A DNA stretch of 64,000 bases from Enchytraeus crypticus (Eukaryota > Annelida > Clitellata > Enchytraeida > Enchytraeidae): NCBI GenBank assembly GCA_905160935.1, contig CAJHZI010000294.1, positions 616,001-680,000 on the forward strand, written 5' to 3'. Made by a program: the position numbers and the translations under genes. The notes below the pieces were generated by a model. That model was not told where the DNA came from. It ran no database searches and saw nothing but the letters and a program-made list of their open reading frames with translations. Position 1 is the first letter of the stretch. Every line of letters starts with the position of its first letter. Positions 17,838-34,553 of this stretch are shown piece after piece.

Positions 17838-17843
17838 TATATG
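17838..17843. repeat. Polinton target-site duplication, left
   Basis: TATATG directly before the element end AGTAGTATC. The same six bases follow the right end at 34548-34553. Six bp is the known target duplication size of Polintons. Confidence 0.85.
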
Positions 17844-18032
17844 AGTAGTATCTAATCCGGGATTACACTACCACCTGGTACTTCTGGAGCGACACCCCTT
17901 TTTATAGCGATTTATTTACTATTTTTGTCTCGCTCTCTCCCCGTTCGCTCGCCAAAAATACTAAATAAAACTCTATAAAAAATCGCTCCAGAAAGTACCA
18001 TGTAGTAGTGTAATCCCGGATTAGATACTACT
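17844..18032. repeat. 189-bp palindromic terminal unit, left
   Basis: The unit starts AGTAGTATCTAATCCGGGAT and ends with the inverse (ATCCCGGATTAGATACTACT). The arms stay complementary almost to the centre (TCTGGAGCGA against TCGCTCCAGA; ATTTTTG against CAAAAAT), broken by a few mismatches and a CACCCC bulge. A single strand could fold into one long hairpin. Confidence 0.85.
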
Positions 18033-18098
18033 AATAATAATATTTATTATTTATATTGTATCGAAACTATAGCAACATCTATTTATAATATCAACCCT

Positions 18099-18336
18099 CT
18101 AGAATACAATAGGTCTAATATGGATACCATCATCCATTACAACTCCTTTTGTATATAAAGGAGATAACCCTACTTTATTCTGTTCATATGTTTTCATCTC
18201 TTTCTTATCAAACCGAAACCCCTTATTAACACCATTAATAATCTCACTATTAAACAAGCATTGTATATATTTATCTTTATTTATAATACTACTATTATAA
18301 GTACGATTCTTCTGTATATCTTTTGATGATGCTTTT
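18099..18336 (-). pseudogene. Duplicated polB 3' end inside the left TIR
   Basis: Encodes NKDKYIQCLFNSEIINGV and GVVMDDGIHIRP, the C-terminal tail of the element's own polymerase, differing at a few residues. Upstream of 18336 the reading continues into unrelated sequence (to 18455). It is a by-product of the terminal repeat including the polB end, not a gene. Confidence 0.85.
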
Positions 18337-18769
18337 ATATTTATAGATATTCTCTTTTGCATATTAATCAATAAAATGATTGCAGACACTATATTTAGCC
18401 ACACTGCAGACTGTGATATTTCGCTTATGGCATACAGAAGACTCAACATAGTCAAAGTATATTGTCAAGGGACACTGACATTCTACTTATTACAGAAAAA
18501 GATTCCGATATAGAATTCGAAATATGAGTACTAATTCATTAGCTGAAAGTCCTACTGATAAATTTACACTTACTGTAGATGAAAGAAATAATAACAAATA
18601 TCCTCTAATTGAAGGTCATAAAATAGCTAAAACCTTTAAAATGCTTAACTAAAACCTATAAAGTAAAATATAGCTCTTTTACAATGGTGTTTTACTGTCT
18701 TTCAAAATGTGTTAAAATTATTTTGATTTTAATATAGAATGAAACTATGATTACTGCCTCTCTACATTG

Positions 18770-19102
18770 TCACTCAGGTGCTCCGTCACGAAAGTTTGCA
18801 GTTGCGGACATCATGTTACCTAAATACATATACATCTGAGAACAGAACCGAATTCTCTTATTATTATTTTCCACAGCTTGTCGATCAAGTTCACTGATTT
18901 TTGCGTCTCGTTCATCATTTGAAGAGCAAAGTTCACTGATTTTTGCGTCTCGTTTTTTATTTGCTTCTTCTTGAGCTCGTTGTTCTTCGTTTATTCTTTG
19001 CAGAATAGCCTCCCATATCGGGATATTCTCACAAGGAAATTTTTCCTCCTTCTCATTAAAATAAGTACACTTGTGTGTATGAATATCTTGCACTCCTTCC
19101 AT
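18770..19102 (-). CDS. Small coiled-coil protein, left arm (unknown)
   Basis: 110 aa, starting MEGVQDIHTHKC. The middle is charged and heptad-like with a short tandem repeat (KRDAKISELCSSN, then ERDAKISELDRQ). No family recognised. Fourteen bases before the ATG is a good splice acceptor (TTTTTTTATTACAG), and a strong donor (AAAG|GTAAGTAT) lies at 19305-19306, so the transcript probably has a ~189-nt intron in its 5' UTR. The ORF lies within the ~850-bp segment that interrupts the left terminal repeat, so it may be a late acquisition. Confidence 0.45.
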   Translation of the reverse strand: MEGVQDIHTHKCTYFNEKEEKFPCENIPIWEAILQRINEEQRAQEEANKKRDAKISELCSSNDERDAKISELDRQAVENNNKRIRFCSQMYMYLGNMMSATANFRDGAPE

Positions 19103-19116
19103 ATTTCAGTTTCAGC

Positions 19117-19305
19117 CTGTAATAAAAAAATACGGTCTGAATTATTTTCTTTTATATAATTTCAATTTTTATTAAATATCTTTATACATCTTTGATGGAT
19201 CAGGATTACATCCTGTAAAATCTTTCTTATATTAAAGTCACTTGAACAGATGTGTAATTTACTAACTCAAAACTTTAAAGAAATTTAATATCAAAATATA
19301 CTTAC
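19117..19305 (-). other. Candidate 5'-UTR intron
   Basis: On the minus strand, GTAAGTATATTTTG at the donor side and TTTTTTTATTACAG at the acceptor side, 189 nt. The 31-bp terminal-repeat relic (19187-19217) lies inside it. Confidence 0.45.
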
Positions 19306-19545
19306 CTTTCGTAATGATAAGTCCGATTTCAATCGAGTACAAATGATAAATGCAGAACGTTGCTGAAACTGCGAAGTATCACGAGTATTGTTTATAGCAA
19401 CAACTATGACAACAGTAAACATTCTACGCTTCAGTCATGCGAATCGATACATCCGTAACGATCTTTATGGCAAGTCTGGACAAGTATTCTTTACCAAAAC
19501 AATGTTCAGAATTTTAGCTAGGTCTATATTATACTAAGCCTATAA
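19306..19545. other. Left-arm non-coding or 5' leader sequence
   Basis: Holds the presumed first exon of the gene at 18770-19102 and no convincing ORF. Confidence 0.35.
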
Positions 19546-19878
19546 TTAATATGGATTAATACGAAGTCTATCAAATCGGGTTCTTCGGTCCTCTTCTTTA
19601 CTGTTTCGTTTTTCATCTTCTCTTTCTACGGCTGCTGCTGCGTCTCTTCGTTTTTGTTCTTCCTTGAGAACCTCGATTAAGCACATTAAGCTATCGATTC
19701 CACTTTGAGCTTGCGAAATTTCATCCAAAACTTGTACATTTCTGATATTATTTATAGTCGCTGTAATATTCGGCTCATTAATGTATTTACTATTTCGCAA
19801 ACAATGCCTTAATCTTCGCATTGCTAATCCTATACGTTCACATATTCCATCGAGCTTCTTTCTGCTATTCATAGACAT
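19546..19878 (-). CDS. Small charged coiled-coil protein (unknown)
   Basis: 110 aa, from MSMNSRKKLDGICERIG. The C-terminal half is helical and very charged (KEEQKRRDAAAAVEREDEKR). No motif or family recognised. It lies between the integrase 3' end and the coiled-coil ORF at 18770, on the same strand. It has no TAAATG start context, unlike most genes of the element. Confidence 0.45.
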   Translation of the reverse strand: MSMNSRKKLDGICERIGLAMRRLRHCLRNSKYINEPNITATINNIRNVQVLDEISQAQSGIDSLMCLIEVLKEEQKRRDAAAAVEREDEKRNSKEEDRRTRFDRLRINPY

Positions 19879-19883
19879 TCTCC

Positions 19884-19998
19884 AATTACAGCAAACTGTG
19901 TCAACTTTTACGATAAACTATGTCAAGTTTTCTAAACAAACGAAAAGATAGGTCAAATTTTCAAAACAAACGAAAAACTATGTCAAATTTTCAATACT
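19884..19998. repeat. ~30-bp direct repeats in the left arm
   Basis: About four units of AAACTATGTCAAATTTTC plus (T/A)AAACAAACGA, the first degenerate. They lie between the ORF at 19546-19878 and the integrase and could be protein-binding sites. Confidence 0.6.
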
Positions 19999-20160
19999 TC
20001 ATTGGCTGATATATATATAGAATAGAATGTGATGTAAATAATTTAGCCGGTGACGGTATATGATAGGGCCATGTGTTTCTAATTTATCAATAAGCGTTTA
20101 CATTACATGTACAACTGCACCAGGAAGTTTTTATTTGGCGACTAATCTAATAGTTTTTCT

Positions 20161-21150
20161 CTATATATTTGTCTTATACATATTTGTTACTGGTATCCAC
20201 TCATTAAACTTATCACTATAGCCCATCCATTTAACTAAACCATGTTCAACACCATCTATTATTTTCTTTCGTAACACTTTCTCAATTCTATATATTTCTT
20301 GCTTAGTCTTTTGTAATTCTTGTTCATAAAAACTACCCTCTAATACCTCATCCCTTGTATCTTTTAAAACATAAGTTACAGGCCTTGTTAATTTTACTTC
20401 ATGTATAGCATATACAGCTTCAGACCAATTAGGTAAATATCCTTTCTCGAAGACGCCCTTTATTCGGCTAATTCTTACTTTATCTCCAACTTTAAACTTA
20501 GGTTTCTTAAGTTTTTCTGGTGTAGGCCTAACCATATCTATGCTATCAACTAATTTACTACATTTACCTGGAGTCATACCTGTAGTGCTATGAACAGTAT
20601 TATTATACTCAGTAATTAACCTATTTAGCATATCAACCCAGTTTCTAGTATTTTCAGCTGTAAATCTTTTCCACATCTTTTCCTTTAACGTCCTATTAAA
20701 CCGTTCAACTACACATGATTTATGCTCTCCATAAGTAGAATATCTATTAATGTTATTTTCCTGTAGCCACTGATCCATATTTTTATTATAAAATTCTTTA
20801 CCTTGATCCACCCATATATGCCTAGGTCTCCTACCCGAATCCTTCACTATAGTTTTAAATGCTTCAGTCACTGTTTCACCTTTCTTATCTTTCAAAGGTA
20901 CACTCCATACATATTTTGAATATACGTCAATAACATTTAACATGTATTTATAACCTTTATTCACCTTACTCCATTCCTGCATATCGACTAAATCTGCACC
21001 CCAAATATCATCCACAGCATAAACTTCTACTTTTCTCCTTTCAAACTTCCTTCTAACAGGTTTATGTAATTCTTCAGCCAGTTGCTCAAAGGGGTCAGTT
21101 AAGACCCCTTCTTTAAGTTTTTTGAATTTATACCTAACCCAAATCTTGCT
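20161..21150 (-). CDS. Integrase (retroviral-type DDE, chromodomain), probable frameshift product
   Basis: Catalyses integration into host DNA. In the 284 codons from GTG 21015 the catalytic triad is D8 (GADLVDM), D70 (HIWVDQGKEF) and E104 (VVERFNRTLKEKMW), followed by an SH3-like part (KVGDKVRISRIKGVF) and a chromodomain at about 242-276 (IYRIEKVLRKK; VKWMGYSDKFNEWIPV). The frame is open upstream to a stop at 21151-21153 and adds typical Polinton integrase sequence (DPFEQLAEELHKPVRRKF). No in-frame ATG precedes D8; the first is codon 12. It overlaps the PLA2 ORF in the -1 frame at a slippery site, so translation by -1 frameshifting is likely. Confidence 0.93.
   Translation of the reverse strand, partial: SKIWVRYKFKKLKEGVLTDPFEQLAEELHKPVRRKFERRKVEVYAVDDIWGADLVDMQEWSKVNKGYKYMLNVIDVYSKYVWSVPLKDKKGETVTEAFKTIVKDSGRRPRHIWVDQGKEFYNKNMDQWLQENNINRYSTYGEHKSCVVERFNRTLKEKMWKRFTAENTRNWVDMLNRLITEYNNTVHSTTGMTPGKCSKLVDSIDMVRPTPEKLKKPKFKVGDKVRISRIKGVFEKGYLPNWSEAVYAIHEVKLTRPVTYVLKDTRDEVLEGSFYEQELQKTKQEIYRIEKVLRKKIIDGVEHGLVKWMGYSDKFNEWIPVTNMYKTNI
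21089..21123 (-). promoter_or_regulatory. Candidate -1 ribosomal frameshift signal (PLA2 to integrase)
   Basis: Read on the minus strand: heptamer A AAA AAC (21123-21117) in phase with the PLA2 codons, 6-nt spacer TTAAAG, then a perfect 8-bp stem AAGGGGTC / GACCCCTT with loop TTAACT (21110-21089). The PLA2 stop TAA (21101-21099) lies in the loop. A -1 slip at the heptamer enters the integrase frame. Confidence 0.75.
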
Positions 21151-21653
21151 TTATTCTTCATTATAACACTAACCAATTTTGCCATGTTTCTTTGAGTACT
21201 GTCAAATTTAGGATCATTAGAAATTTCATAGGCTCTATGCGCTAAAGCTTCATCGCTAATATTTCTACTTGCTGTATCTGTATTGTCTGTATAAAATTGA
21301 TCATGTAACTTACACATACTATCCAACTCATTAATACCCTTATACCCTTCTCTATTCCTCTGTTCATACTTTGTACCAGGACCGCAATAAGAATACTTAT
21401 TTTGATTATTAAAGGATCCATTATTTACATATTCGCCTTGATTTGATGGCAAGTGTAATTCACCAACGGTATTGCCGATTTTTGATAGAACGTCATTAAA
21501 TACACCTTGCCCACTTTTTGTACCTGCGATGAATTTACATTTTTGCTTACCACATACTGTACATACAGCAATTAACATTTTTCTGTTATTTTTAGAAATT
21601 CTTTCTTGTATATTTGTTGAGTCAGTCACGGCTCTACATTTTAAGCAGTACAT
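21099..21653 (-). CDS. Zinc-ribbon + phospholipase A2-like virion protein
   Basis: 184 aa. The N-terminus is a zinc ribbon (MYCLKC at 1-6; CTVCGKQKC at 31-39), like small zinc-ribbon domains seen in other large DNA viruses. Residues 89-94 are YCGPGT, the calcium loop of PLA2, and 111-121 (DSMCKLHDQFY) carry the His-Asp catalytic pair as HDxxY, as in the parvoviral capsid PLA2. That enzyme opens endosomal membranes during entry, and a similar role is inferred here. The start is supported by GGTAAATATG. The last codons overlap the integrase frame. Confidence 0.82.
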   Translation of the reverse strand: MYCLKCRAVTDSTNIQERISKNNRKMLIAVCTVCGKQKCKFIAGTKSGQGVFNDVLSKIGNTVGELHLPSNQGEYVNNGSFNNQNKYSYCGPGTKYEQRNREGYKGINELDSMCKLHDQFYTDNTDTASRNISDEALAHRAYEISNDPKFDSTQRNMAKLVSVIMKNKARFGLGINSKNLKKGS

Positions 21654-21716
21654 ATTTACCGGCTTTAAAACCGGGAAAGATCTGACAGACTGTCAGTATT
21701 TACAGTATAAAATTTT

Positions 21717-23084
21717 TTAATAACTTTCCATCCTAGGCGTTTGCCCATCAGATGTTAATCTAAATAATCTATCTGATATTATTATCGCATGTAGATGAGT
21801 TTCTGCAGGTATAGGTTGCTCAAATTTTAGTTCTAGACTAATGCTCATTACATTTGATCTTACCTGTTCACTCTGATGTCTTACATCAAATACTATAATA
21901 GGATATAACTCCTTGTAACTAAGTAAATTTATTTGATTGCCACCTATTAAATTATTTATTCCATAATAATCTTTCTTGAAATTTTCAGCCATTTCATAAA
22001 GTTTAACGTAATCATTCTTTGCGTAATCAATATCTATATAATCTGAGGGATATCTATCTCCATTCAACTTAACACAAGCTGAGCTTAAATTAACATGATC
22101 GAATATTGCAGGATTTTGTTCTTGGGTACGAGTCTTATCAGTTTGAAATGAAAGTATTATCCATCTTGGTTTTTCCACACCTGCTGAACTATTTAACATC
22201 CAGTTAAAGCTACGGACATTTTGAATTACAGTAGTATGCTCATCACTTCTTGCAGAAAAATGTAATGGAATAAGTGCTTTATTTTTCACTAATTCTAACA
22301 GTTGAGTTCGTTTAACTGGAGACGGTATTACTTGTGGAATAATCCATCTAATATCATTCATTAATATTTTACCTGCAGGAACACCATTTGCCCTGTGTAT
22401 TGGTAAATCATCACTACCTCTTGTGAATTTTAAAATGTGCTCCATATTATATAAGACCTTGTCATATTCTGAGAATCCGAAAATGTGAGAAAAAGGTATA
22501 ATGAATGAAAAGTTTCCTCTTGGATCAGAACTCATAAGAAGTTTCCTGCGCACATCAAAACCCTGATTAAAATTATTATTTCTAGTAGGCCTATAACCTG
22601 CTGCAGGGGCAGCCACAGATGCATTAATTTCGTTACTATCTGCACTAGAAGATGTATCTTTACTCCAACACTGTTTTAGACCTGAACTACTGTTAAAATC
22701 ATCTGGATAAATTAGATAACCTAACATTGATGTAGTTTGTCCAGGAAAATTTAAAGTTTCCATTATTTGCCCACCTAACCTGTACTCAATACTCGAAAAC
22801 ATATACATTACAGCATTATTAATTAAAGCTATTTGTGCATCAGCTGCATAAACATCATTATTATCGTTTGCTCTAACTAGCTGACCCTTTACCTCAATGT
22901 AACTTTGAGAAGGAATATAATAAGCATCGCTAGCCGGAGTTCTAATTTCAATTGTATGACCAAAGTTATTAAAATCAGCTTTACTTTGAGGAATGAAGGT
23001 CTTATAATCTTTTCTTTCAATACTGTTATCAACTTCCACTTGAGTTTGTAATATAAGTACATCGTTATCTACTTCAGTCTGCAT
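21717..23084 (-). CDS. Major capsid protein (double jelly-roll, hexon-like)
   Basis: 455 aa, the usual size for Polinton/adintovirus hexons. It forms trimeric capsomers. Marks seen are the N-terminal TPASDAYYIPSQSYIEVKG strand, MFSSIEYRLGGQIMETLNFP, SFIIPFSHIFGFSEYDKVL and IRWIIPQVIPSP between the two barrels, and a second barrel ending LELKFEQPIPAETHLHAIII. ATG 23084 is preceded by ACTAGTAA. It lies directly downstream of the small virion protein (8-nt gap). The call rests on recognised family character; no structure was computed. Confidence 0.9.
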   Translation of the reverse strand: MQTEVDNDVLILQTQVEVDNSIERKDYKTFIPQSKADFNNFGHTIEIRTPASDAYYIPSQSYIEVKGQLVRANDNNDVYAADAQIALINNAVMYMFSSIEYRLGGQIMETLNFPGQTTSMLGYLIYPDDFNSSSGLKQCWSKDTSSSADSNEINASVAAPAAGYRPTRNNNFNQGFDVRRKLLMSSDPRGNFSFIIPFSHIFGFSEYDKVLYNMEHILKFTRGSDDLPIHRANGVPAGKILMNDIRWIIPQVIPSPVKRTQLLELVKNKALIPLHFSARSDEHTTVIQNVRSFNWMLNSSAGVEKPRWIILSFQTDKTRTQEQNPAIFDHVNLSSACVKLNGDRYPSDYIDIDYAKNDYVKLYEMAENFKKDYYGINNLIGGNQINLLSYKELYPIIVFDVRHQSEQVRSNVMSISLELKFEQPIPAETHLHAIIISDRLFRLTSDGQTPRMESY

Positions 23085-23092
23085 TTACTAGT

Positions 23093-23380
23093 TTAAAATC
23101 TCTTTATACCGCTACCAGATCTTAATCTATCCAATATTTGTTGTGAATTAGGATCTAACTCCTTCTTCTTATCAGTAGAGAGTTTATTAATTAAAGCTTT
23201 ACTTCCTTCTGTAAGGGCCAAACCCCCTACTTCTCCAACAGCCTTTAACATTGGTTTAGCAATCAAATCCTTATTTTGAAAAATATATGAAGCAATCCTT
23301 TTTAGGATATCTACAAAGCCAGAACCATACACCATTTTTCTTTTGGATGTGTACATTTGATTCTTCTTTCTCACGAACAT
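23093..23380 (-). CDS. Small basic virion protein (pX/core-like)
   Basis: 95 aa with a basic N-terminus (MFVRKKNQMYTSKRKMVYGS), an amphipathic helix (FVDILKRIASYIF), a hydrophobic Gly/Ala part (KAVGEVGGLALTEGSKAL) and a basic tail (LRSGSGIKRF). VYGSG resembles adenain cleavage sites (hydrophobic-x-Gly-x-Gly). The position between minor and major capsid genes fits a pX- or core-like role. No firm homology. Confidence 0.65.
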   Translation of the reverse strand: MFVRKKNQMYTSKRKMVYGSGFVDILKRIASYIFQNKDLIAKPMLKAVGEVGGLALTEGSKALINKLSTDKKKELDPNSQQILDRLRSGSGIKRF

Positions 23381-23386
23381 CCTTAT

Positions 23387-24106
23387 TTAAACAGATATAA
23401 AAGATCTGACCTCTCTAATCAGTATATCAATTGTAATTTTTTCTCCCATTAGGTCAATAGGTTTATTATCTTGGTCCGTTAACCAGATTCTAATACTTTG
23501 TATATCAGGTCTTCCTACAACTGGAAGAAATATTAATTCAGGACTTGGTCTCTCTATTACTTTATATCCTGGACTTACTCTTTGTGTAAAGTTATATATA
23601 ACATTTGATCTAGAACTATTAACATAAGTACCAATAATAATGTCACAGTGTACCAGTATTGAGTTTACTTTTTCTATATCTATTACGTTTGGTGAATAAT
23701 GAACACCACTCCCTAATTTTTCATTTGTAAATCCTAAAGTTCTACCTATCGAATTTTCCCCTCCAAAATCTACCATATAGTTTTCATTAGGTATAACAAG
23801 TAATGTCTTAAACGTTGGTTTATAATAATCAATATCAATTTCAAAATTCGGATCTGCTACTTTTATTTTTGCATTAATTACAGCCAATTCATAAGCACCC
23901 TTATCAAATGTGATTATTTTCCAAGTAACCCCCTTATCTGTAGAGTATTTAAATTTATTATTAGTTTCTGTAATATTTGGTACAGAATTATAGGTGTGTA
24001 ATGATAAAAAGGCTGCTTCATATCTTTTGCTTGTATTAAGATATATTGGAGGATTTAGAATTGTGGTAAAATCGGTTGTATGACTGGTCAGTGTTAGTTT
24101 TGCCAT
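23387..24106 (-). CDS. Minor capsid protein (penton-like, single jelly-roll)
   Basis: 239 aa, beta-rich. LTLTSHTTDFTTILNPPIYL, RYEAAFLSLHTYNSVPNI, VDFGGENSIGRTLGF, HYSPNVIDIEKVNSILVHCD and IRIWLTDQDNKPIDLMGEKI are typical of the vertex proteins of Polinton-type capsids (IGRTLGF and QDNKPIDLNGE-like motifs recur in the family). It presumably forms pentamers at the 5-fold vertices. The ATG is 8 nt after a GCTAGTAAATA motif. Confidence 0.85.
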   Translation of the reverse strand: MAKLTLTSHTTDFTTILNPPIYLNTSKRYEAAFLSLHTYNSVPNITETNNKFKYSTDKGVTWKIITFDKGAYELAVINAKIKVADPNFEIDIDYYKPTFKTLLVIPNENYMVDFGGENSIGRTLGFTNEKLGSGVHYSPNVIDIEKVNSILVHCDIIIGTYVNSSRSNVIYNFTQRVSPGYKVIERPSPELIFLPVVGRPDIQSIRIWLTDQDNKPIDLMGEKITIDILIREVRSFISV

Positions 24107-24185
24107 TTTGTATTTACTAGCTACGAAGTTGCTAGCTGTCTTCGACAGACTGATTTAAAATCAGGAAAGACGTGACCAAAGGTCA

Positions 24186-25079
24186 CTATAAGTAAAGGTT
24201 ATTACTCTTCAAGATTTGATCATGGGTATCCTTACAGATAATTTTATTGTTCAATAATTCATCTAAAATAGTAATAATGGTATTATAAACTCCATTATTA
24301 CCAGCATGATACGATGCAATATATTCTTCCAGTTTTTGAAGTAAATCATTTGCATCATTATATACTAGAGCGTAGTTTGTTTTAGGCCTCCCTCTTCCAC
24401 ATTTCTTTTTAACAAGTTTCTTTTTCTTTTTACCCTCACCAACTACTTGTTTACTTTCCTGAATATACTTTAACCTTTTCTTATATTTATCTAAAGTGAC
24501 CCTTTGTGATTCATATATTCCTTTCTCTATATCTGTCTTCTTAGATAATCGATCTTCTCTAAATTCTTGTGCAAGACTTTTTATCTTTGTTGTAACCTCT
24601 TTTAGAATTTCAGGTATTTCACCAATGATAGAATATACTGCATGTGGAAGTGGTAAACTTAAGTCCTGTAAATTTTCTATATCTGTTTCATTAAAGCCTC
24701 TGTTTAAGTCAACTCTTGGAGCTTTAGGAGTAGATTCCTTCGGTTCTGAAAATACGTCTGAAAGACCTGACATATCTTGTATTGCTTGCCTTAATGCGAG
24801 TCTTTGGTCGTAACCTGGAAGGTTACCTGGACTTTGTCCAGCATTATCTCGAAGTGCTAAAATCTGAGCTTTGCTCAGCAGCCTATCGGCTGTATTATTT
24901 AAGCTTTGTTTCTCATCAGTGATAGTTTTCATAACTTCTTTAGTACTATTTATGATTGGTTGGAATAATTCTGATTGACTCTCATATGTTTGTTGCTTTC
25001 CAACTTTCTCATCTCTGAACATTTCCTTAACCTCATTTTTAACCTTACTATATGTTGTAGGATCAAATTTTACCAGCAT
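24186..25079 (-). CDS. AT-hook, coiled-coil protein (probable virion protein)
   Basis: 297 aa, mostly helical. Long charged helices lie at 10-75 and 155-210, and a Lys run at 217-227 (KKKKKLVKKK) leads into an AT-hook core (GRGRPKT, 228-234) that binds the minor groove of AT-rich DNA. The C-terminus is helical (DLLQKLEEYIASYH). Its place among capsid genes suggests a packaged DNA-binding or scaffold protein. No named family recognised. Confidence 0.6.
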   Translation of the reverse strand: MLVKFDPTTYSKVKNEVKEMFRDEKVGKQQTYESQSELFQPIINSTKEVMKTITDEKQSLNNTADRLLSKAQILALRDNAGQSPGNLPGYDQRLALRQAIQDMSGLSDVFSEPKESTPKAPRVDLNRGFNETDIENLQDLSLPLPHAVYSIIGEIPEILKEVTTKIKSLAQEFREDRLSKKTDIEKGIYESQRVTLDKYKKRLKYIQESKQVVGEGKKKKKLVKKKCGRGRPKTNYALVYNDANDLLQKLEEYIASYHAGNNGVYNTIITILDELLNNKIICKDTHDQILKSNNLYL

Positions 25080-25103
25080 ATTTATACACGATAAAACACA
25101 TTT

Positions 25104-25814
25104 CTATGTACTTCTATGTATTTTTATGTATTTGTTTGGAACATATAAAGTATCATAATTTAAGAGATATCGACCACATTCAGGAGGTTCCCAAAGATTG
25201 ATTACTATATATCCGTGCTTCTTAGACCAAGCTTTATCGCAAAGTTTCTCAAACTCCTCTAACCCCATATCACCTGAAATATGTGTATCATAGAAATATT
25301 TTACTGTCTTTTTATCTTGATGAAACAAAATAAATATATTAGCATTTTGGCGTATTCCATGTTTCTTTAAATGATGTAAGCTTTGACATAAATAAAATGC
25401 ATTTACATTATTATGTCTACCTCTACAAAAGTAATCTGTCATAACTTTTTGATCCTCACTCATAACATCATCGAAAACTACAATATGGGTTTTATCTTTA
25501 TCAAGTTCTTCTGGACCTACAATACTCGACTCATTAGGATTGTACAAAGTAACAATGTCAGAATCCAGTTCTGTATTAATGTCCTGTAAATATCTGTAAG
25601 CATCTTGAAAAGGTGTTGTGGTGTATATCATCACGTCATCATATTTTAAAACTTTATTTAGTAAGAAATTAAGCATCAGATTAGTTTTTCCACATCCCGT
25701 ACTGCCTGCTATTATCATAAATATATTTTTAGGAAAAATATCTGCATGTTTCTTGTGTTTTTTATTACCATATAGGGGTATTAGTATTTGTGAAAAATCT
25801 GTGTTTAGAGACAT
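25104..25814 (-). CDS. Genome-packaging ATPase (A32/FtsK-HerA type)
   Basis: 236 aa. Walker A is GSTGCGKTN (37-45) after FMIIA; Walker B is HIVVFDDVMSE (110-120), followed by FCRGRHNNVNAFYLCQSLHH, which contains the conserved arginine and sensor region of this family. It drives DNA into the procapsid. A GCTAGTAAATC motif lies about 22 nt before the ATG, and the protease stop is 8 nt upstream. Confidence 0.92.
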   Translation of the reverse strand: MSLNTDFSQILIPLYGNKKHKKHADIFPKNIFMIIAGSTGCGKTNLMLNFLLNKVLKYDDVMIYTTTPFQDAYRYLQDINTELDSDIVTLYNPNESSIVGPEELDKDKTHIVVFDDVMSEDQKVMTDYFCRGRHNNVNAFYLCQSLHHLKKHGIRQNANIFILFHQDKKTVKYFYDTHISGDMGLEEFEKLCDKAWSKKHGYIVINLWEPPECGRYLLNYDTLYVPNKYIKIHRST

Positions 25815-25821
25815 TAGTTCT

Positions 25822-26277
25822 TCAACTTTGTTCTGATTTACTAGCTACGATTTGAAACAAATGATTAAGTACATCGTGAAAACTTTTACCCTTGTTTAAT
25901 TCCCTAATAACATAGATAGAGTAATGACCGCATATGATTTCATCCCTAGCTTGTATTTTATATGTACTGAAATATCTGTTTTTTTCTGAACAATAATTCT
26001 TAACCTCTAATGGAGGTTCGAAACCAAAACTATCAAAGTAATAACAATTCTTACCCTTAACATAAAGACTAACCCAATGTGTTCCTTGACCCTCACTATC
26101 ATCCATATTTAATATTAGACTTTCGCTAGTGCTAGCCTTGCCTTTCAACTCATCTCTCATAAACACACTTTTAAAGTTTTTAATTGATTTACATTTTTCC
26201 ATAATATCAAAATTACTTAAAGGTTTTAGTGGTAAAGGAAATTTACTTAGAAATTTAGGGAAAGTTAACACTTGCAC
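25822..26277 (-). CDS. Maturation cysteine protease (adenain-like), probable frameshift product
   Basis: 151 codons from GTG 26277. The triad in adenain order is H67 (GTHWVSLYV), D82 (CYYFDSFGFEPP) and C116 (EIICGHYSIYVI). In adenoviruses this enzyme cuts capsid precursors and is activated by a peptide from pVI. There is no ATG before codon 26. The ORF overlaps the end of the pVI-like ORF by 13 nt in the -1 frame, next to a nine-A run. It could start at the internal ATG (codon 26), which still keeps the whole catalytic part. Confidence 0.9.
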   Translation of the reverse strand: MQVLTFPKFLSKFPLPLKPLSNFDIMEKCKSIKNFKSVFMRDELKGKASTSESLILNMDDSEGQGTHWVSLYVKGKNCYYFDSFGFEPPLEVKNYCSEKNRYFSTYKIQARDEIICGHYSIYVIRELNKGKSFHDVLNHLFQIVASKSEQS

Positions 26278-26290
26278 GTCTTTTTTTTTC
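26265..26290 (-). promoter_or_regulatory. Candidate -1 frameshift site (pVI-like to protease)
   Basis: Minus strand: A9 followed by G (26289-26280). A AAA AAG is in phase with the pVI-like codons, and a -1 slip enters the protease frame. The zero-frame stop is at 26267-26265. No strong downstream stem is apparent, only a weak AAGT/ACTT pairing. A one-base homopolymer error would also explain the overlap. Confidence 0.5.
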
Positions 26291-26936
26291 CTAAAAAAGA
26301 ACCTGATCCTTCTCTTTCTAAGTATAAACCGTTACCCCACACTACACCTCTAAGTCTTTTTGGATTACCTCCTAAACCAATCTTCTTTAAGAGGTCAGAT
26401 AAGATCTTTCCAACCAAGGGTATTGGCTCCACAGCATCGCTAATTATGCCTGATCCTTCTCTTTCTAAGTATAAACCTTTACCCCACTTTGCTCCTCTAA
26501 GTCCTTCTGTATTACCTTCTAAACCATATGACTTTAAGGTATTTGATAAGGGTATTCCATAAAATGATATTGGGTTAGAATTTGATATGTCTGACTCTGA
26601 TGGAGCCACCTGTTTGCTCGAATTACCTGTACCACTTGTTCCTCCCGCTAATCCTAAAAGACTTAAAGCTGCAGGAAGTAAGCGAAGGAAAGCCCCTAGG
26701 AATCCTCCAGTTTTTTCCATATGCTTAAGTTGAGTTTTACTAAGGGTTAGTTCCACACCAGCATTAGCTTGTTTAATTTTATTTAACTGAGTCTTCGTTA
26801 AAGGAAGATTGATATCTCCTGTTAAATTCTTTTTAGATAGTTTAATTACAACTTCAGTACCTTTATCACATGCATGCTTAATTTTAGTTGCTTGTCCTGA
26901 TGAAAGTGTAACACCGTGATTTATATATTGTGTCAT
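26265..26936 (-). CDS. pVI-like membrane-active minor virion protein
   Basis: 223 aa. The N-terminal part is two related units (VTLSSGQATKIKHA and LPLTKTQLNKIKQA, each followed by a second L-S/L-T strand). Next comes a hydrophobic amphipathic stretch at 78-99 (GFLGAFLRLLPAALSLLGLA) with a possible adenain site LAGG-T, and then two copies of LRGxxWGxGLYLEREGSG (146-163 and 195-212) that are also near-identical in DNA. The tail KKKTCKC is basic with cysteines, recalling the protease-activating peptide at the C-terminus of adenovirus pVI. It is divergent from the fibre-like gene across a 22-bp gap. Confidence 0.72.
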   Translation of the reverse strand: MTQYINHGVTLSSGQATKIKHACDKGTEVVIKLSKKNLTGDINLPLTKTQLNKIKQANAGVELTLSKTQLKHMEKTGGFLGAFLRLLPAALSLLGLAGGTSGTGNSSKQVAPSESDISNSNPISFYGIPLSNTLKSYGLEGNTEGLRGAKWGKGLYLEREGSGIISDAVEPIPLVGKILSDLLKKIGLGGNPKRLRGVVWGNGLYLEREGSGSFLGKKKTCKC

Positions 26937-26958
26937 TGTCCTTATTTACTCTTACTAA

Positions 26959-27936
26959 ATGAGTAACAACTCTATTTTAAAATCAGGTTCTACAGATAAA
27001 CCAAAGGTTAATGATTCTAGTTTTAAAACCTTGTATAGAATGCTGGACAAAGTCCAGGTAGCCTTTCAGGCTGCTATAGATACAAAACTTGATAGAAATA
27101 TTACTAGTGATATCAGTTTGAATAATAATAGAATAACAAATGTAAAATTACCAATTAATGATAACGATGTAGCTACAAAGGGGTATTGTGATTATATTAA
27201 AAAAGAAACTACTCTAGCAGCAGTGCAACTAGCCAATCTACATATAGAAGAAACTGTGCAACCTGTTTTAAATTCAAAACTGAATAAAAATGGGGGTTCA
27301 ATGACTGGTAACCTTGATATGAATAATAATCGTATAACTAATGTTGGAAATCCCGTTGATGCTCATGATTGTATAACAAAAGAATATTTTGAAACAAATT
27401 CCAAATTAGGGGATATGAATTCTAGTGATGTAACTAATAAATTATACGTGCTCCTTAATGGCACGTATGATAATATACTTGCTGAGAAACTTTGTAAAAT
27501 TGGAGAAGTTATTTCTTTAGTGTTAATGAAAAATAATTTACTAGATCAATACAATTCAAAGCAATTCATTAATTCCTTGACTTATGCTATATCTATGTAT
27601 AACATTTACAAGAATATCTTTGCAGGAAATATGGAAGATCTTGAGGAGAGTTCTATATTCGGGGGTTTAAAAGTTAATATGATAAAGTTGATAGAGCTTT
27701 TACCTCAAGATATATTTCAAGAGTTAAAGGCCGCTCTACTTAAAGAACAACTATTTTTAGCTCCTGAAAAAGGTACAAGGAAAAGATACAGAAGATTTTT
27801 AAATAAAACTGTAAAAGAAGTTGATCCTGATAACACTAATGAAGAACTACAACTTTTACTTTATAAAAACTTACTCATACTTGATTTAGGTTTTGTTTAT
27901 TTAAATGATTCATTGCTATATACATTACTAAAATAA
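26959..27936 (+). CDS. Fibre-like attachment protein
   Basis: 325 aa. Two tail-fibre repeats lie at 49-80 (ISLNNNRITNV, ATKGYCDYI) and 111-145 (NGGSMTGNLDMNNNRITNV, ITKEYF). This is the trimeric fibre motif known from phage long tail fibres and also present in Polinton-like elements. The remaining ~180 residues are helical, with a basic patch (KGTRKRYRRFLNK), and show no known receptor-binding fold. It is the only capsid-side gene on the plus strand; the ATG context is ACTAAATG. Confidence 0.7.
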   Translation: MSNNSILKSGSTDKPKVNDSSFKTLYRMLDKVQVAFQAAIDTKLDRNITSDISLNNNRITNVKLPINDNDVATKGYCDYIKKETTLAAVQLANLHIEETVQPVLNSKLNKNGGSMTGNLDMNNNRITNVGNPVDAHDCITKEYFETNSKLGDMNSSDVTNKLYVLLNGTYDNILAEKLCKIGEVISLVLMKNNLLDQYNSKQFINSLTYAISMYNIYKNIFAGNMEDLEESSIFGGLKVNMIKLIELLPQDIFQELKAALLKEQLFLAPEKGTRKRYRRFLNKTVKEVDPDNTNEELQLLLYKNLLILDLGFVYLNDSLLYTLLK

Positions 27937-28028
27937 TAATAATGGGAATGGAGGTGTAAATACAGAATCGTAGTCTATCATTTTGATCTATTAAAGACTT
28001 AACATTTCTCTCAAGTTTCGTTATTTCA

Positions 28029-28430
28029 CTATTCATTTATTTGCTTTTTTATATTCGCATTCATTTGTTTCATTCTAGCTTGATTTCTTCTAAATATTTT
28101 CATAGCTCTATCTCGTATTTCATTATCTGTGGAAGGAACAATTACAGTCTTATTTCTAAATTCATTTAACCTATTTTCATCAAACTTTCCTAAATTATCA
28201 ACTTTATATCTTAGTTCTTCGTTTTCTTTCTCTAACATTTCATTATCACAATCTACTAAGATTAATTGTTGGGTAACGTAATTTAAGGCTTTATGAGCTA
28301 CATATTTATCTACAACTTCATTTTTGAATCCTTGAATTTTATCTGCATCAGATAATTTACTCATTTCATTCAGTATGGGTTTTAAATCATTGGTCCATTT
28401 ACTTTTTTCTTCTAAGGGTATTAGATCCAT
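28029..28430 (-). CDS. Unknown coiled-coil protein
   Basis: 133 aa, start at CTAGTAAATG. A helical Glu/Lys/Asn-rich centre (NEMLEKENEELRYKV) predicts a coiled coil, and the tail is basic (FRRNQARMKQMNANIKK). No family recognised. First of four small minus-strand genes between the fibre-like gene and polB, probably accessory or early functions. Confidence 0.6.
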   Translation of the reverse strand: MDLIPLEEKSKWTNDLKPILNEMSKLSDADKIQGFKNEVVDKYVAHKALNYVTQQLILVDCDNEMLEKENEELRYKVDNLGKFDENRLNEFRNKTVIVPSTDNEIRDRAMKIFRRNQARMKQMNANIKKQINE

Positions 28431-28447
28431 TTACTAGTAACAAAAGT

Positions 28448-28966
28448 TTATTCAACTTGTAAATTGGCTAAACTAGTATTAATCATTTTCTCCAGTTCCT
28501 CATCTTCATACTCAACTTTGTTGAGATCCAAACCCTCTGGGTTTGCATGGTTACCTGCAACAACAAGGTCACTACGTGGTTTATGTTTTCTCCGTTTGCT
28601 CTCAATTGGTCTAGATTGGTCTGGTTTGGTCTCAAGTGGTCTAGGCACATCTGGTTTGGTCTCATTTAATCGCGTTTTGTACCCAAGTTGTTTGAGACCG
28701 GTATTCAGGGTATTATGACTTATGTGATGAGTTTTACAATATTTTGATTTACTAGTCTTCTTATCAATATTCATGTATTCATTTAGAAAAGTTATAGCAT
28801 GATCTCTGCACTTTATTAATTTCAATTCATTAAAATCTTTAGGAATATCCTTTTTATTAGTCTGAGTAAAAGATCTATGTTTATCTTTAACCTGTTGTAA
28901 TTTAGATCTTTCCCTTCTACTTTCAGAGGGTAGATAAGATTTAACTGTAATATTAGAAGTATTCAT
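28448..28966 (-). CDS. Putative helix-turn-helix protein with ETKPD repeats
   Basis: 172 aa. Residues about 66-96 (SKYCKTHHISHNTLNTGLKQ, then LGYKTR) resemble an HTH: two helices around a HISHNTL turn. A proline-rich repeat (NETKPDVPRP, LETKPDQSRP, IESKRR) and a basic patch (KRRKHKPRSD) follow. A DNA-binding regulatory role is an inference. Start context GTAAATG. Confidence 0.5.
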   Translation of the reverse strand: MNTSNITVKSYLPSESRRERSKLQQVKDKHRSFTQTNKKDIPKDFNELKLIKCRDHAITFLNEYMNIDKKTSKSKYCKTHHISHNTLNTGLKQLGYKTRLNETKPDVPRPLETKPDQSRPIESKRRKHKPRSDLVVAGNHANPEGLDLNKVEYEDEELEKMINTSLANLQVE

Positions 28967-28975
28967 TTACATGTA

Positions 28976-29404
28976 TCAAAAGTCATCACTTTCATAATAA
29001 CTGTATGCCCATTTAAATTTTTCTGTATTCTCTAATTTAGAATGTATGGCATCCGTATTATACGGCCACACATAGTAAATGAGCATTAAAGTATCCTCAG
29101 AAAGTCTATTAAAGTCGATTCCATCAAGCTGTATATGTTCAATCATTTTAAAATCGTCACCTGATATGCCTCTAGTCTTCATCAATGACAATTCAACGCA
29201 CAACTTATCGATCAAAACGTAAGTTTCGTCAGTAATGCAACTATGGTTAATTCCTCTGCAGAGTGTAACTTCCAAACGCTTAAAAACTGGCCATTTTAAA
29301 AATGATGATTTTTCGGAATGCTCCATACTCCTTAATTTTTCTAAAGTTGTATCTAGCACCTTTCTCAAAGCCATATCTTGTAGTCGATTCATTGTCGGCA
29401 CCAT
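28976..29404 (-). CDS. Unknown 142-aa protein
   Basis: Starts at ATAAATG; MVPTMNRLQDMALRKVLD, then a helical body ending WAYSYYESDDF. No motif recognised. The 9-nt gap to the next ORF suggests that the small genes are tightly packed and perhaps co-transcribed. Confidence 0.55.
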   Translation of the reverse strand: MVPTMNRLQDMALRKVLDTTLEKLRSMEHSEKSSFLKWPVFKRLEVTLCRGINHSCITDETYVLIDKLCVELSLMKTRGISGDDFKMIEHIQLDGIDFNRLSEDTLMLIYYVWPYNTDAIHSKLENTEKFKWAYSYYESDDF

Positions 29405-29517
29405 TTATAGTACACATAATTACATAAAAGAAAAAATATAGAACACTTTAAATATTGTGTTTTATATTATGTTTTATGTAATTATGTGTGTGTTTTTAAT
29501 ACTAACTTGAGAAGTAT

Positions 29518-29730
29518 TCATTTATTAGCGATGGAATTTTGGAAATGTTTATTGGATTCAATATGTCTAGAGTAATTATGAAGTGTCATGGTTTTATCAC
29601 AAATATCACAGTAATACTTTTTACTTGCATATTTCTTTACAGCTCTTATTTTAGATTGTTGTCTCTCTTCCTCTGTATCATACTTTTTAACTCTTCTAGT
29701 TATATCGCCAGATAAAATAATGGCTTCCAT
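29518..29730 (-). CDS. Small C2H2 zinc-finger protein
   Basis: 70 aa. One U1-type C2H2 finger at 39-62: YYCDICDKTMTLHNYSRH, with C41, C44, H56 and H62. Such a single-finger mini-protein is common in Polinton-like elements. Divergent from polB with a 59-bp AT-rich gap that probably holds a shared bidirectional promoter. Start context ATAAATG. Confidence 0.65.
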   Translation of the reverse strand: MEAIILSGDITRRVKKYDTEEERQQSKIRAVKKYASKKYYCDICDKTMTLHNYSRHIESNKHFQNSIANK

Positions 29731-29789
29731 TTATTTAGCAATTTATTTAATGAAAGAATTTTTCTTTTATATAATCTTTTACTTAATAA
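29731..29789. promoter_or_regulatory. Bidirectional promoter region (zinc finger / polB)
   Basis: 59 bp between divergent starts, each preceded by ATAA immediately before ATG. It contains TTTTATATAATC, a TATA-like box for polB. Confidence 0.4.
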
Positions 29790-32700
29790 ATGGTGTTGAC
29801 AAATGATGAGTTAGAAAGGCTAAAGTTATTTAATCATCTATCAGTAATGAAGGTAGAATCGATATTAGGTCGTAAAATAACAAATGATGAATTTATAAAT
29901 ATTGAAAGTATGGTAAACAATGCTTCGACATTTTCAAACGTCACGAAAAAAAGTCAAGCAGTAAAAGCTAAGGAAGGTACTAGCACTAAAGTACGTGTAA
30001 AAAGTCCAAAAAGTAATAGAAATATTGACGTAGGCGGTCGTGCATTTAAAAAGTTACTTAAAGAGGGAAAATATAAAAAAAAAAAAAAAACCAATAATTT
30101 TATAAATATAGATAATAATAAACCTGTTGCGAAAGAAGAAGAACCTAAAGCTAAAGTTTTTGTGAAAAAACCGGATAGTAAACGAAAGATTTTAGTAGGT
30201 GGTAAAGCATTTAAAGAGTTACTTAAGGAATATAGTTATGACGAAAAAACTCAGGAGTTTACTCTTCTTGACAGTAATAAAGCAAAAAAACCTAAAACTG
30301 TTTATAGTCCAGTAAGTAGAAGACAAATTCAAATAGGAGGTAAAGCATATAAAGCCTTACTTGAGGTATATGAACATGATAAAGAAAAAAATATTATGAT
30401 TCGTCGTGATGGAGCAGAAATTCCTATATTAGATGGATCATATTGGGTATTTAATGAATCAGATTCAGATAAAATAGTGAGAGAGATGGTAGCTAAAGAA
30501 AGAAATATCTATGGTGAAGAGAATGAAAGTAAATATTTAAAACTATATTGTTTCAATTATATAGATTCTTTGAATAAGATTTATGAATGTTTTGATAAAA
30601 TATATCATAAAGAAAATAATGCAATAAAACTAAATATTAGTTTTGGTTATGTAACTGATAAGGATGGAGAAATAAGTCTTTTCAAACCTGGTACTAATAA
30701 CTTATTTTTTGAGCAACTTTTTGTAGTGAAGGATCTAAATGATCTTAAACAACTAAAACATAGAGTAACAAAAGAGACAATAGAGAACCGTTTGATAGAA
30801 ACTCTTAAAGATTCTAAGACAATAATTCTTGGTATATACGCTATGGCTGTAGAAATCACTAGATTAGATTTCCTAATAGGAGCTAATATTGAGTTGCCAA
30901 CATACATTAAACAATGTAGAACTATTATAGCTTTAGAAAAGGCAGAGAACAATATGTGTTTTTGGGCATGTATAGGAATAGCTGAAGGATGTAGACCAGA
31001 TCGTTATATAGCAAGGGTGAGAGAGTTATTTACTGAGTTTTATAACGGAAGAAGAAGAATTGATACTTATACAGGTTTTGATTATATTAATGAATTAGAT
31101 CGTTATGAAGAGTTTAATAAGCGTCATGCTATAAATATAGTTAGTTATTATGAAAATGGAGCTATATCGTATGTTCGTAAATCACCATTCAATGAAACTC
31201 GAGTACCTATTTATTTAAATCTTTATCTTAATCATTTCTCATATATCACTGATATTCATAAGTTTGGTAACAAGAAATATTTATGTACAAGATGTGATAT
31301 GAGATTTAGAGATAATTGGGATTTACAAAGTCATCTTGAAACTTGTACTTTAGAACAAAAGGATATATTTAATAAGTACCCAAAGTTATGGGAAAAGAAA
31401 AGAAATATAATTGTAGAGTTATCTGATTACTATGATGTAGATGTAGACTATAAATATCCTTATATGATGGTGTTTGATTTGGAATCGCTTCTTCAGAAAA
31501 TGAGGCAACTAGTAGAGAGAGTAATAGTGAGAGATCCAGAAACTAAGAAAATGATTAAAATAGACAGCGCTAGATTTAGAAGACTGGTTAAACAATATCC
31601 TTATGATGACCAAAACAAGGTATTTTTTCCACTTGCAAAAGAAAAAGAAAGTAAATTAAGATATATTACTAGACATATACCAGTTTCGGTATCAATAGCA
31701 ACTAATGTACCAGGGTTTAATTTGGAAGAAGAAGAAGAATTTATATTGTCTAAAAACCCGAGAGATTTAGTTAAACTTATGTTTGAATATTTTGATAGAG
31801 TTGCAGCAAAGGCTAAAGAGCTAATGTTTATTCAAATGAAACCATTATTAGATCGTTTGGAAGAAAAAGATAAAGCTGAAGTTGAATCTTACTGTTCTGT
31901 TATACCGATTGTTGGGTTTAATAGTGGATTTTATGATATTAACTTACTAACTAATGAAGGATTCATAAATGAAATATTAGCTAGAGATAAAACACCTTTT
32001 GTTATTAAAGAAGGGAACAGATATAAAGGAATAAAAACGAATAGCTTTTTATTTCTGGATCAGATGAATTACTGTGCACCGGGAACAAGTTTAAGTAAGT
32101 TTATTAAGTCCTATGATATTGATGAACAGAAGGGTTGGTTTCCTTATGAATGGTTTGATAGTTATGATAAGCTGGATTACCTAGTTAAGGATTTAAAAAT
32201 AGAGGATTTCTATTCATCGTTAAAAGACGAAAAGATGAAAGAAAAAGATTTTAATAAACTTATGGAAATATGTAAGGAAAAGAAAATAGTATTAGTTAAA
32301 GATTTATTGAGATGGTATAATAATTTAGATGTTGGACCAATGTTAAAAGCATGTTTAAAACAAAAGGAATTATATTATACGTTTAAACTAGATATGTATA
32401 AAGATGCATTTTCACTTCCTGGTTTAGCTGAAAACGTTCTGTATCAGTTTCAAATATTAGGTTTTGAAGAATATTTACGAAAAGCAAAGCCACATAAAGC
32501 TGGACCTGTATTTCAATTAGATGATTTGGAATTAGAGAAGAGAATAAGTAATTATAAAAAGCAAGATGAAGATAAGAAAAGAGATTCAAGTCGAAATGTG
32601 ACAGTTGAAGATGTTAGAAATATATTCAGTAGAGATAATTGGCGTTGTCATTATTGTTGGAGTTTTCTGTGTAGAGATACTTGGTCATTAGATAGGATAG

Positions 32701-34292
32701 ATTGTAAGAAACCTCACGTTAAAAATAACTGTGTTTTATCTTGTCAGAGATGTAATAAAGCTAGATCAGATAAACCGTATAAAGAGTTTTACAGACATAA
32801 AGCGCTATTGAGATGGGAAAAGTATTATAATCCTATGATATGGTTATTTAGTGAAGAAAATAAGGATGCTTTTTATAAATTAAAACAAAATATAACTGGT
32901 GGTGCATCCATTGTATTTCATAGGTATCATGAAAAAGATAAAACGAAGATTAGTAGAGTAAATTATGATATAGGTAAAAAGGAATGGGGTTACAACAAAG
33001 AAGTAGGGAAAACAGTGAAGAAAATAGTTGGTTATGATGCAAATGCGTTGTATTTATATTGTATAGGTGAAGAAATGCCTTGTGGTAAATTATATTGGCA
33101 AGAAACTAGTGATTGGGTAAAGTATGAAAAAGAACTTATGACGGATTCCTTCTTTGGATTTATGGAAGTTGATATAGAAGTACCTGAAGATAAATGGAAT
33201 TATTTTAGTGAGATGTGTCCGATATTTCAAAATAGGGAGTATGATGAAACTATATGTGGAGAATACACACAAGCTTTACTTGAGAAGTTGGATAGAAAAC
33301 CTACGAAAAGTAAAAAACTTATGGCTACATTAAAGGCGGAAAAGATATTAATTAAATCTACAAGACTAAAATGGTTAATAGAACATGGATGTATTGTTAG
33401 TAAGTTACATGGAGTTATTGAAGCTAAGAGAGGAAGAGTACTGAAGGGTTTTATGGAATGGGTATCAGATGAAAGAAGAAAAGGAGATATAGATACAAAG
33501 TATGCAATAATTGCTGAAGGGTGTAAACTTATTGGTAATTCAGCTTTTGGAAGAACGGGTTTGAATAAGAATAAATTCAAAAAGGTTAAATATTGTACTG
33601 AAGCACAGTTCAATAGAGCTAAAAACGATCACTTTTATTATGGTGCAAAAGAATATAATGGAGTGTATGAAGTAACTAAAAGAGCTAGAAAGGTTTATCA
33701 AGATATGCCTATCCAAGTTGCATGTAGTATATATGATGATTCAAAGTTAAGGATGTTACAGTTTTATTATGATTGTATAGATAAGTATATAGATAGATCA
33801 GATTTTCAGTATATAGAGATGGATACAGATTCTGCTTATATGGCTATGACTGATGATTTTGAGAAATTAATTAAACCTGAATTAAGGGATGAGTTTGAAA
33901 AGGAAAAACATAAATGGTTTTCAACAGATAAATATTCAAATAGAACTCCAGGATTGTTTAAGATTGAATATGAAGGAGAAGGTATGGTAGCTTTATGCAG
34001 TAAAACATACTATGTATGGGGAAAAGATACAGGATGTAATCCTGATTCATCAAAGATGAACAAAAACAAAGCATCATCAAAAGGTTTACAGAAGCGTAAT
34101 AGTATTATAAATAAAGAAAAATATATACAATGCTTGTTTAATAGTGAGATTATTAATGGTGTTAATAAGGGGTTTCGGTTTGATAAGAAAGAGATGAAAA
34201 CATATGAACAGAATAAAGTAGGGTTATCTCCTTTATATACAAAAGGAGTTGTAATGGATGATGGTATCCATATTAGACCTACTGTATTCTAG
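29790..34292 (+). CDS. Protein-primed DNA polymerase B with adaptor-like repeats, zinc finger and HNH insert
   Basis: 1500 aa, replicates the element. Exo I VFDLESL (D563, E565) and Exo II GFNSGFYD (N711, D716); palm motif A YDANALYLYC (D1083), motif B KLIGNSAFG (K1246-G1254), motif C MDTDSAYM (D1345, D1347), then SKTYYVW. The N-terminus has three repeats of the PxSxRxIxVGGKAFKxLLKE type (about 67-96, 122-150, 170-198), resembling viral 2-cysteine-adaptor domains; a related fourth unit (RDPETKKMIKIDSARF) sits inside the exo region. A zinc finger YLCTRCDMRF lies at ~497. Residues ~948-1000 form an HNH-like domain (CHYC, LDRID, H976, NCVLSCQRCN). The last ~85 codons are in the right TIR. Confidence 0.95.
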   Translation: MVLTNDELERLKLFNHLSVMKVESILGRKITNDEFINIESMVNNASTFSNVTKKSQAVKAKEGTSTKVRVKSPKSNRNIDVGGRAFKKLLKEGKYKKKKKTNNFINIDNNKPVAKEEEPKAKVFVKKPDSKRKILVGGKAFKELLKEYSYDEKTQEFTLLDSNKAKKPKTVYSPVSRRQIQIGGKAYKALLEVYEHDKEKNIMIRRDGAEIPILDGSYWVFNESDSDKIVREMVAKERNIYGEENESKYLKLYCFNYIDSLNKIYECFDKIYHKENNAIKLNISFGYVTDKDGEISLFKPGTNNLFFEQLFVVKDLNDLKQLKHRVTKETIENRLIETLKDSKTIILGIYAMAVEITRLDFLIGANIELPTYIKQCRTIIALEKAENNMCFWACIGIAEGCRPDRYIARVRELFTEFYNGRRRIDTYTGFDYINELDRYEEFNKRHAINIVSYYENGAISYVRKSPFNETRVPIYLNLYLNHFSYITDIHKFGNKKYLCTRCDMRFRDNWDLQSHLETCTLEQKDIFNKYPKLWEKKRNIIVELSDYYDVDVDYKYPYMMVFDLESLLQKMRQLVERVIVRDPETKKMIKIDSARFRRLVKQYPYDDQNKVFFPLAKEKESKLRYITRHIPVSVSIATNVPGFNLEEEEEFILSKNPRDLVKLMFEYFDRVAAKAKELMFIQMKPLLDRLEEKDKAEVESYCSVIPIVGFNSGFYDINLLTNEGFINEILARDKTPFVIKEGNRYKGIKTNSFLFLDQMNYCAPGTSLSKFIKSYDIDEQKGWFPYEWFDSYDKLDYLVKDLKIEDFYSSLKDEKMKEKDFNKLMEICKEKKIVLVKDLLRWYNNLDVGPMLKACLKQKELYYTFKLDMYKDAFSLPGLAENVLYQFQILGFEEYLRKAKPHKAGPVFQLDDLELEKRISNYKKQDEDKKRDSSRNVTVEDVRNIFSRDNWRCHYCWSFLCRDTWSLDRIDCKKPHVKNNCVLSCQRCNKARSDKPYKEFYRHKALLRWEKYYNPMIWLFSEENKDAFYKLKQNITGGASIVFHRYHEKDKTKISRVNYDIGKKEWGYNKEVGKTVKKIVGYDANALYLYCIGEEMPCGKLYWQETSDWVKYEKELMTDSFFGFMEVDIEVPEDKWNYFSEMCPIFQNREYDETICGEYTQALLEKLDRKPTKSKKLMATLKAEKILIKSTRLKWLIEHGCIVSKLHGVIEAKRGRVLKGFMEWVSDERRKGDIDTKYAIIAEGCKLIGNSAFGRTGLNKNKFKKVKYCTEAQFNRAKNDHFYYGAKEYNGVYEVTKRARKVYQDMPIQVACSIYDDSKLRMLQFYYDCIDKYIDRSDFQYIEMDTDSAYMAMTDDFEKLIKPELRDEFEKEKHKWFSTDKYSNRTPGLFKIEYEGEGMVALCSKTYYVWGKDTGCNPDSSKMNKNKASSKGLQKRNSIINKEKYIQCLFNSEIINGVNKGFRFDKKEMKTYEQNKVGLSPLYTKGVVMDDGIHIRPTVF
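32634..32790 (+). other. HNH-nuclease-like domain within polB
   Basis: Codons ~948-1000: WRCHYCW (C953, C956), LDRID (D968), KPHVKNNCVLSCQRCN (H976, N980, C985, C988), then ARSDKPYKEF. The CxxC...DH-like...N...CxxC order is that of zinc-bound HNH endonucleases. It lies between the exonuclease and motif A, in frame and without stops. Confidence 0.75.
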
Positions 34293-34547: not shown

Positions 34548-34553
34548 TATATG
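34548..34553. repeat. Polinton target-site duplication, right
   Basis: TATATG immediately after the terminal ATACTACT; identical to 17838-17843. Confidence 0.85.

Follow-up and report, generated by a model that had tools for sequence, protein, structure and literature searches.

The window, that is the whole 64-kb stretch of DNA analysed here, contains a Polinton/Maverick-type element of 16.7 kb (17844-34547) with near-identical terminal inverted repeats (TIRs). On either side of it stands a direct repeat of 6 bp, TATATG (17838-17843 and 34548-34553). The inverted arms (17839-18294 and 34097-34552) are 99% identical. Polinton/Maverick elements are recognised by long TIRs together with a 6-bp target duplication, and both are found here. 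The element also encodes an rve integrase (PF00665), a double jelly-roll capsid protein (PF21738, 2.6e-45) and an A32-like ATPase (PF04665, 3.9e-09). An ORF at 25822-26277 matches the adenovirus-type protease weakly and below the cut-off (PF00770, E 0.0032). The 1,500-aa ORF at 29790-34292 has a PolB-like size, yet gave no polymerase match. Two further ORFs are worth recording: one on the minus strand (26265-26936) contains an internal repeat whose two copies, RGAKWGKGLYLEREGSG and RGVVWGNGLYLEREGSG, match imperfectly, and one on the plus strand (26959-27936), surrounded by genes of the minus strand, has a match to the phage tail-fibre N-terminal model PF03906 (6.9e-07).

The subject of this analysis is a pair of overlapping frames on the minus strand. 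The upstream ORF (21653-21099, 184 aa) is a DUF5679 plus phospholipase A2 (PLA2)-like protein (PF18930, 3.4e-11; PF08398, 1.1e-07), with YCGPGT and HD motifs. The second frame (21150-20161, 329 codons) encodes an integrase with an rve core (PF00665, 6.1e-14) and a chromo-like domain (PF00385, 5.9e-05, below its cut-off). It lies at -1 relative to the PLA2 frame, overlaps it by 52 nt (21099-21150), is closed just upstream by an in-frame TAA (21153-21151) and ends at its own stop (20163-20161). It has no ATG ahead of the first catalytic Asp, and no Cys ahead of the core.

Within the overlap is a slippery heptamer, A_AAA_AAC (21123-21117), in the phase of the PLA2 frame, which is the zero frame of the shift, and read as TC[A AAA AAC]. 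A 6-nt spacer (21116-21111) separates it from a putative stimulatory hairpin (21089-21110), the arms of which (21110-21103 with 21096-21089) form 8 Watson-Crick pairs, including 5 G-C. The 6-nt loop (21102-21097) contains the PLA2 stop TAA (21101-21099). A weak candidate for a second, pseudoknot stem would pair the loop (21102-21098) with GUUAG (21057-21053) through 5 bp, one being G-U; an H-type pseudoknot is a frequent but not obligatory part of such sites. The locus thus presents an X_XXY_YYZ heptamer in zero-frame phase within a -1 overlap, a stable 3' structure within the 5-9 nt spacing looked for, and a downstream ORF without an AUG start of its own. The first-pass annotation had described this same arrangement of heptamer, spacer, stem and stop-holding loop, with an integrase frame lacking an ATG before its first catalytic Asp and overlapping PLA2 at -1; its anatomy is exact to the base.

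RNAfold gives the site -17.4 kcal/mol and adds a ninth pair (G-U) to the stem. Compared with 200 dinucleotide shuffles, of which 2 fold equally well, the hairpin has a z-score of -3.37. On both strands of the window there are 683 heptamers of the form XXXYYYZ (YYY being AAA or TTT, and Z not G), and a perfect 8-bp stem, with at least 4 G-C pairs, a spacer of 5-9 and a loop of 4-12, stands behind only one, that of the PLA2/integrase overlap. When the overlap and its 3' flank were shuffled (dinucleotides preserved), the in-phase heptamer with the stem appeared in 0 of 20,000 sequences and the in-phase heptamer alone in 4,697 of the 20,000, so that the heptamer by itself is unremarkable. What is rare is the combination of heptamer and stem. 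An Rfam search returned two matches, both far under their gathering scores.

In the 524-Mb host assembly, 40 of 387 candidates were scored, and the junction was read at 40 loci, the window included. Counting the window, the gene pair is present in at least 28 copies at 99-100% identity, and 12 are identical across 1,561 nt; ten further copies have diverged to 86-91%. Both heptamer and loop TAA are kept at all 40 loci, which rules out a private mutation of the window. The overlap is 52 nt long in 38 loci, the exceptions being L026 (103 nt) and L033 (28 nt). The integrase frame has at least 326 codons in 35 of the 40 and is shorter in 5; the PLA2 frame has at least 176 codons in 38 and is shorter in 2. 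No Met precedes the integrase catalytic motif at any of the 36 loci in which that motif was found. In both genes, third codon positions vary 2.5 to 5 times more than first and second positions.

The codon that holds the first A of the heptamer is TCA in 35 loci, GCA in 2, ACA in 1 and GAA in 1, its last A being kept in these 39. The fortieth, L033, is truncated at a contig end and has a TAA in the PLA2 frame directly 5' of the heptamer; therefore no in-phase ribosome would reach the heptamer, and no shift is possible there. In L025 the integrase frame carries a TGA directly 5' of the heptamer, which leaves the slip site, or a point beyond it, as the only way into that frame; the frame breaks 138 codons on. 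Both of these loci have seven A in the run, and the six-A and seven-A loci share one phase.

Among 13 distinct copies, stem pairing holds in 103 of 104 cells, the single mismatch being at the second pair in L022. One stem pair has standard variants (U-A in 6, U-G in 6 and C-G in 1), of which C-G is a change on both sides; the shuffle control for covariation is uninformative (263/500). The candidate pseudoknot stem can pair in 13 of 13 copies, its sequence being nearly invariant, so that this is no real test. Conservation of the 35-nt signal region among the diverged copies is only moderate (rank 283 of 1,043 windows), and of 1,071 blocks of seven bases, 186 match the heptamer in invariance. 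The genome copies, read as sequence, indicate that the signal persists; strong selection is not demonstrated by the copies alone. It is worth adding that a contig barely longer than the element (C502 of G000, 18,158 bases) carries a near-identical copy, and that several other copies lie less than 10 kb from a contig start. These may be unplaced repeats or an extrachromosomal form.

An integrase search scored 4,518 proteins. Among the 120 matches listed, 46 carry PLA2 and integrase in a single ORF, and this one-ORF form, as read from the protein sequences, is an addition to the picture in the first-pass annotation. Of the 74 integrase-only ORFs listed, 58 start within or past a conserved ELHKP motif, the ends of metagenome ORFs being as called and possibly contig ends; this fits an integrase N-terminus that lies in another frame. 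The other 16 start ahead of ELHKP, 15 of them with M, so some relatives may start the integrase independently. Two of these early starters (P0042 and P0061) contain FKKL, which is also what the heptamer gives when read in the -1 frame.

A distant relative, L041, could be read as DNA, and was the only relative that a genome-contig search gave. It is a PLA2-integrase fusion (PF08398, 8.3e-11; PF00665, 1.3e-11), its PLA2 part being 31% identical over 97 positions. The fusion (912-2582) is on a contig catalogued under a bacterial MAG (uncultured Muriicola) and is followed by a 149-aa ORF that by eye is cysteine-protease-like; L041 is likely to be a eukaryotic element among bacterial contigs. Scans of viral contigs with the integrase, PLA2 and both alignments found no relative, nor did phage records, and the integrase N-terminus, used by itself as the query, gave no match. 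A profile search against solved structures matched mainly leucine-rich-repeat proteins around the linker, and these matches were taken as spurious.

In fusions P0013, P0030 and P0079 the linker between DUF5679 and PLA2 reads MKGAG-F, IVGSG-L and LKGEG-F, respectively, which we take to resemble the adenovirus-protease consensus. The protein may be cleaved at this linker; that a GxG motif where PLA2 meets integrase is also a protease site is speculation.

With PLA2 as the query, 549 proteins were scored; only lengths of 101-322 aa were admitted, so that no fusion of this size could appear among the 120 listed. In 108 of these 120 PLA2-only relatives the tail contains the dipeptide KN. The residue ahead of KN is S in 95, P in 4, T in 3, L in 2 and Q, I, K or A in one each, and every one of these residues has some codon ending in A. 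The linker ahead of KN has 0-16 residues, and most of those listed have xK[KR]G behind KN at a constant spacing; in 17 the protein ends exactly at KN. The 12 of the 120 without KN include two with SLN instead (P0226 and P0227), compatible with U_UUA_AAC, five that terminate before the KN place (P0130, P0145, P0153, P0167 and P0218), and others with SKQK (P0160, P0174 and P0219), TEN (P0157) or AKTPKK (P0172) there.

The PLA2 tail of the window is predicted to be disordered (pLDDT below 50 for residues 175-184, in a model whose mean is only 64.7), and the fold therefore does not explain the conservation of KN. KN is also nearly absent from the linkers of the one-ORF fusions, being found in 3 of the 46 listed (P0021 as SKN, P0078 as QKN, and P0090), which means that it is not invariably the mark of a shift. 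A conserved KN, a free preceding residue that some codon ending in A encodes, and the rarity of KN in one-ORF fusions together form the trace that A_AAA_AAC would be expected to leave; for the PLA2 genes of other species we infer the heptamer from the protein rather than from codons. Pairing PLA2 with integrase ORFs by parent contigs of matching size gave eight coincidences. At the distinctive sizes 10594, 5121, 3554 and 2468 an SKN tail is matched with a late-starting integrase; at 1511 the partner is a one-ORF fusion, probably by chance, and we give these pairs little weight.

Other routes to an integrase from this locus have to be considered. It might be started separately, from a non-AUG codon or by re-initiation past the PLA2 stop, and both the in-frame GTG at 21015 and the 16 listed relatives that begin ahead of ELHKP lean this way. 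We nevertheless regard a separate start as very unlikely: the catalytic Asp has no ATG ahead of it here, initiation at the GTG would lose the conserved ELHKP region, and the heptamer and hairpin would be unaccounted for. Splicing is if anything a little less likely still. It would need an intron across or upstream of 21.1 kb, joining the frames or supplying another integrase N-terminus, and CCCCTTTGAG, in the region of the 3' arm, looks to the eye slightly like an acceptor; but the 46 listed relatives make the joined protein in one ORF, therefore no exon need be lacking, and splicing leaves the conserved KN tail and the hairpin unexplained.

The high frequency of one-ORF fusions among the relatives, and the fact that several host copies are broken elsewhere, could suggest decay, in which an ancestral one-ORF fusion has lost a base, the element is dead and the signal is coincidental. 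Against this are the common phase of all 40 loci, including the ten at 86-91% identity, the 28 copies at 99-100% with 12 identical over 1,561 nt, the excess of third-position variation in both genes, and the many PLA2-only ORFs with the same tail, and we place decay lower again. Slippage of RNA polymerase on the six or seven A, instead of slippage of the ribosome, is highly improbable, since ribosomal sites are typified by a 3' structure behind a spacer of 6-9 nt (PMC3835772) and this run is short. Least probable of all, and close to negligible, is that the assembly dropped one A from a homopolymer: the slip site is an A run, but the six-A and seven-A loci agree in phase and the metagenome PLA2 proteins share the same tail.

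We therefore return to the -1 frameshift put forward in the first-pass annotation. It has been strengthened by the signal kept in the host copies, the one-ORF relatives and the KN tails, support that is comparative in kind and that we consider strong. Very probably, on the sequence evidence, a programmed -1 ribosomal frameshift yields a DUF5679-PLA2-integrase protein beside free PLA2. Most ribosomes would terminate in the hairpin loop, releasing the free DUF5679-PLA2 protein. The hairpin would stall some of them, which would slip back by one base on A_AAA_AAC (we infer both the slippage and its rate) and read on in the integrase frame to give DUF5679-PLA2-integrase. This fusion would be the source of the integrase, for which no other start is evident. 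Elsewhere in the family, Polintons make the joined protein from a single ORF, and the shift version would add a surplus of free PLA2.

The fusion may serve to package the integrase via PLA2, to lend DUF5679 to the integrase, or to set dose. PLA2-type lipases have been suggested as Polinton entry enzymes (PMC4642659). By likeness to parvovirus VP1 and to Gag-Pol, PLA2 may plausibly be a virion protein, through which the integrase would be packaged. More tentatively, and with some doubt on balance, we suggest that a large Polinton/adintovirus-type family joins its integrase to DUF5679-PLA2, either in one ORF or by a conserved -1 shift, with PLA2 anchoring a few integrases in the capsid for a retrovirus-like delivery and the zinc-ribbon-like DUF5679 replacing a missing N-terminal domain.

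If the frameshift is correct, a eukaryotic DNA transposon or virus would use a retrovirus-style recoding switch, setting how much phospholipase is made relative to integrase. The late integrase starts that gene callers give in many Polintons would be accounted for, and it would become testable whether Polintons form particles with their integrase inside. The occurrence of one-ORF and frameshift architectures within one family provides a natural comparison.

The mechanism of frameshifting is itself known, and its use between PLA2 and integrase appears new. A literature search, with most subscription journals outside its coverage, found neither a fusion of PLA2 to integrase nor a PLA2-integrase frameshift reported for Polintons, and the statement to this effect in the first-pass annotation held within that search. 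The nearest report is an adintovirus preprint (PMC11071296), on a related class of viruses with an rve-chromo integrase and with -1 shifts predicted using KnotInFrame. There, however, the shifts are proposed for hexon-adenain and, in penton ORFs, close to the 3' end, and the accessible text of the preprint does not mention PLA2. The insect elements Sf Maverick 1 and 2 likewise have a PLA2 'CAP' protein and a chromo-domain integrase in one element, but in separate ORFs, and the part of the paper available describes neither a fusion nor a programmed frameshift (PMC5803895).

Frameshifting into an overlapping catalytic transposase frame, often at -1, is found in the OrfA-OrfB genes of the IS3 family (IS911 and others), where the upstream protein is generally DNA-binding (PMC5009743). 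These elements differ from ours in being bacterial and in having an upstream protein other than DUF5679-PLA2. A_AAA_AAC and U_UUA_AAC are among the most shift-prone heptamers on mammalian ribosomes (PMC5009743), and the gag-pro junctions of MMTV, HTLV-1 and BLV are listed with AAAAAAC and, a few bases further, a 3' structure (table in PMC3835772). The site described here resembles retroviral gag-pro in its AAAAAAC and 3' structure, and in having an enzyme as the extension of an upstream protein. In contrast to gag-pro, it lies in a DNA element, the upstream protein is DUF5679-PLA2, the integrase follows directly, and the structure is a simple hairpin, with a pseudoknot as a candidate only.
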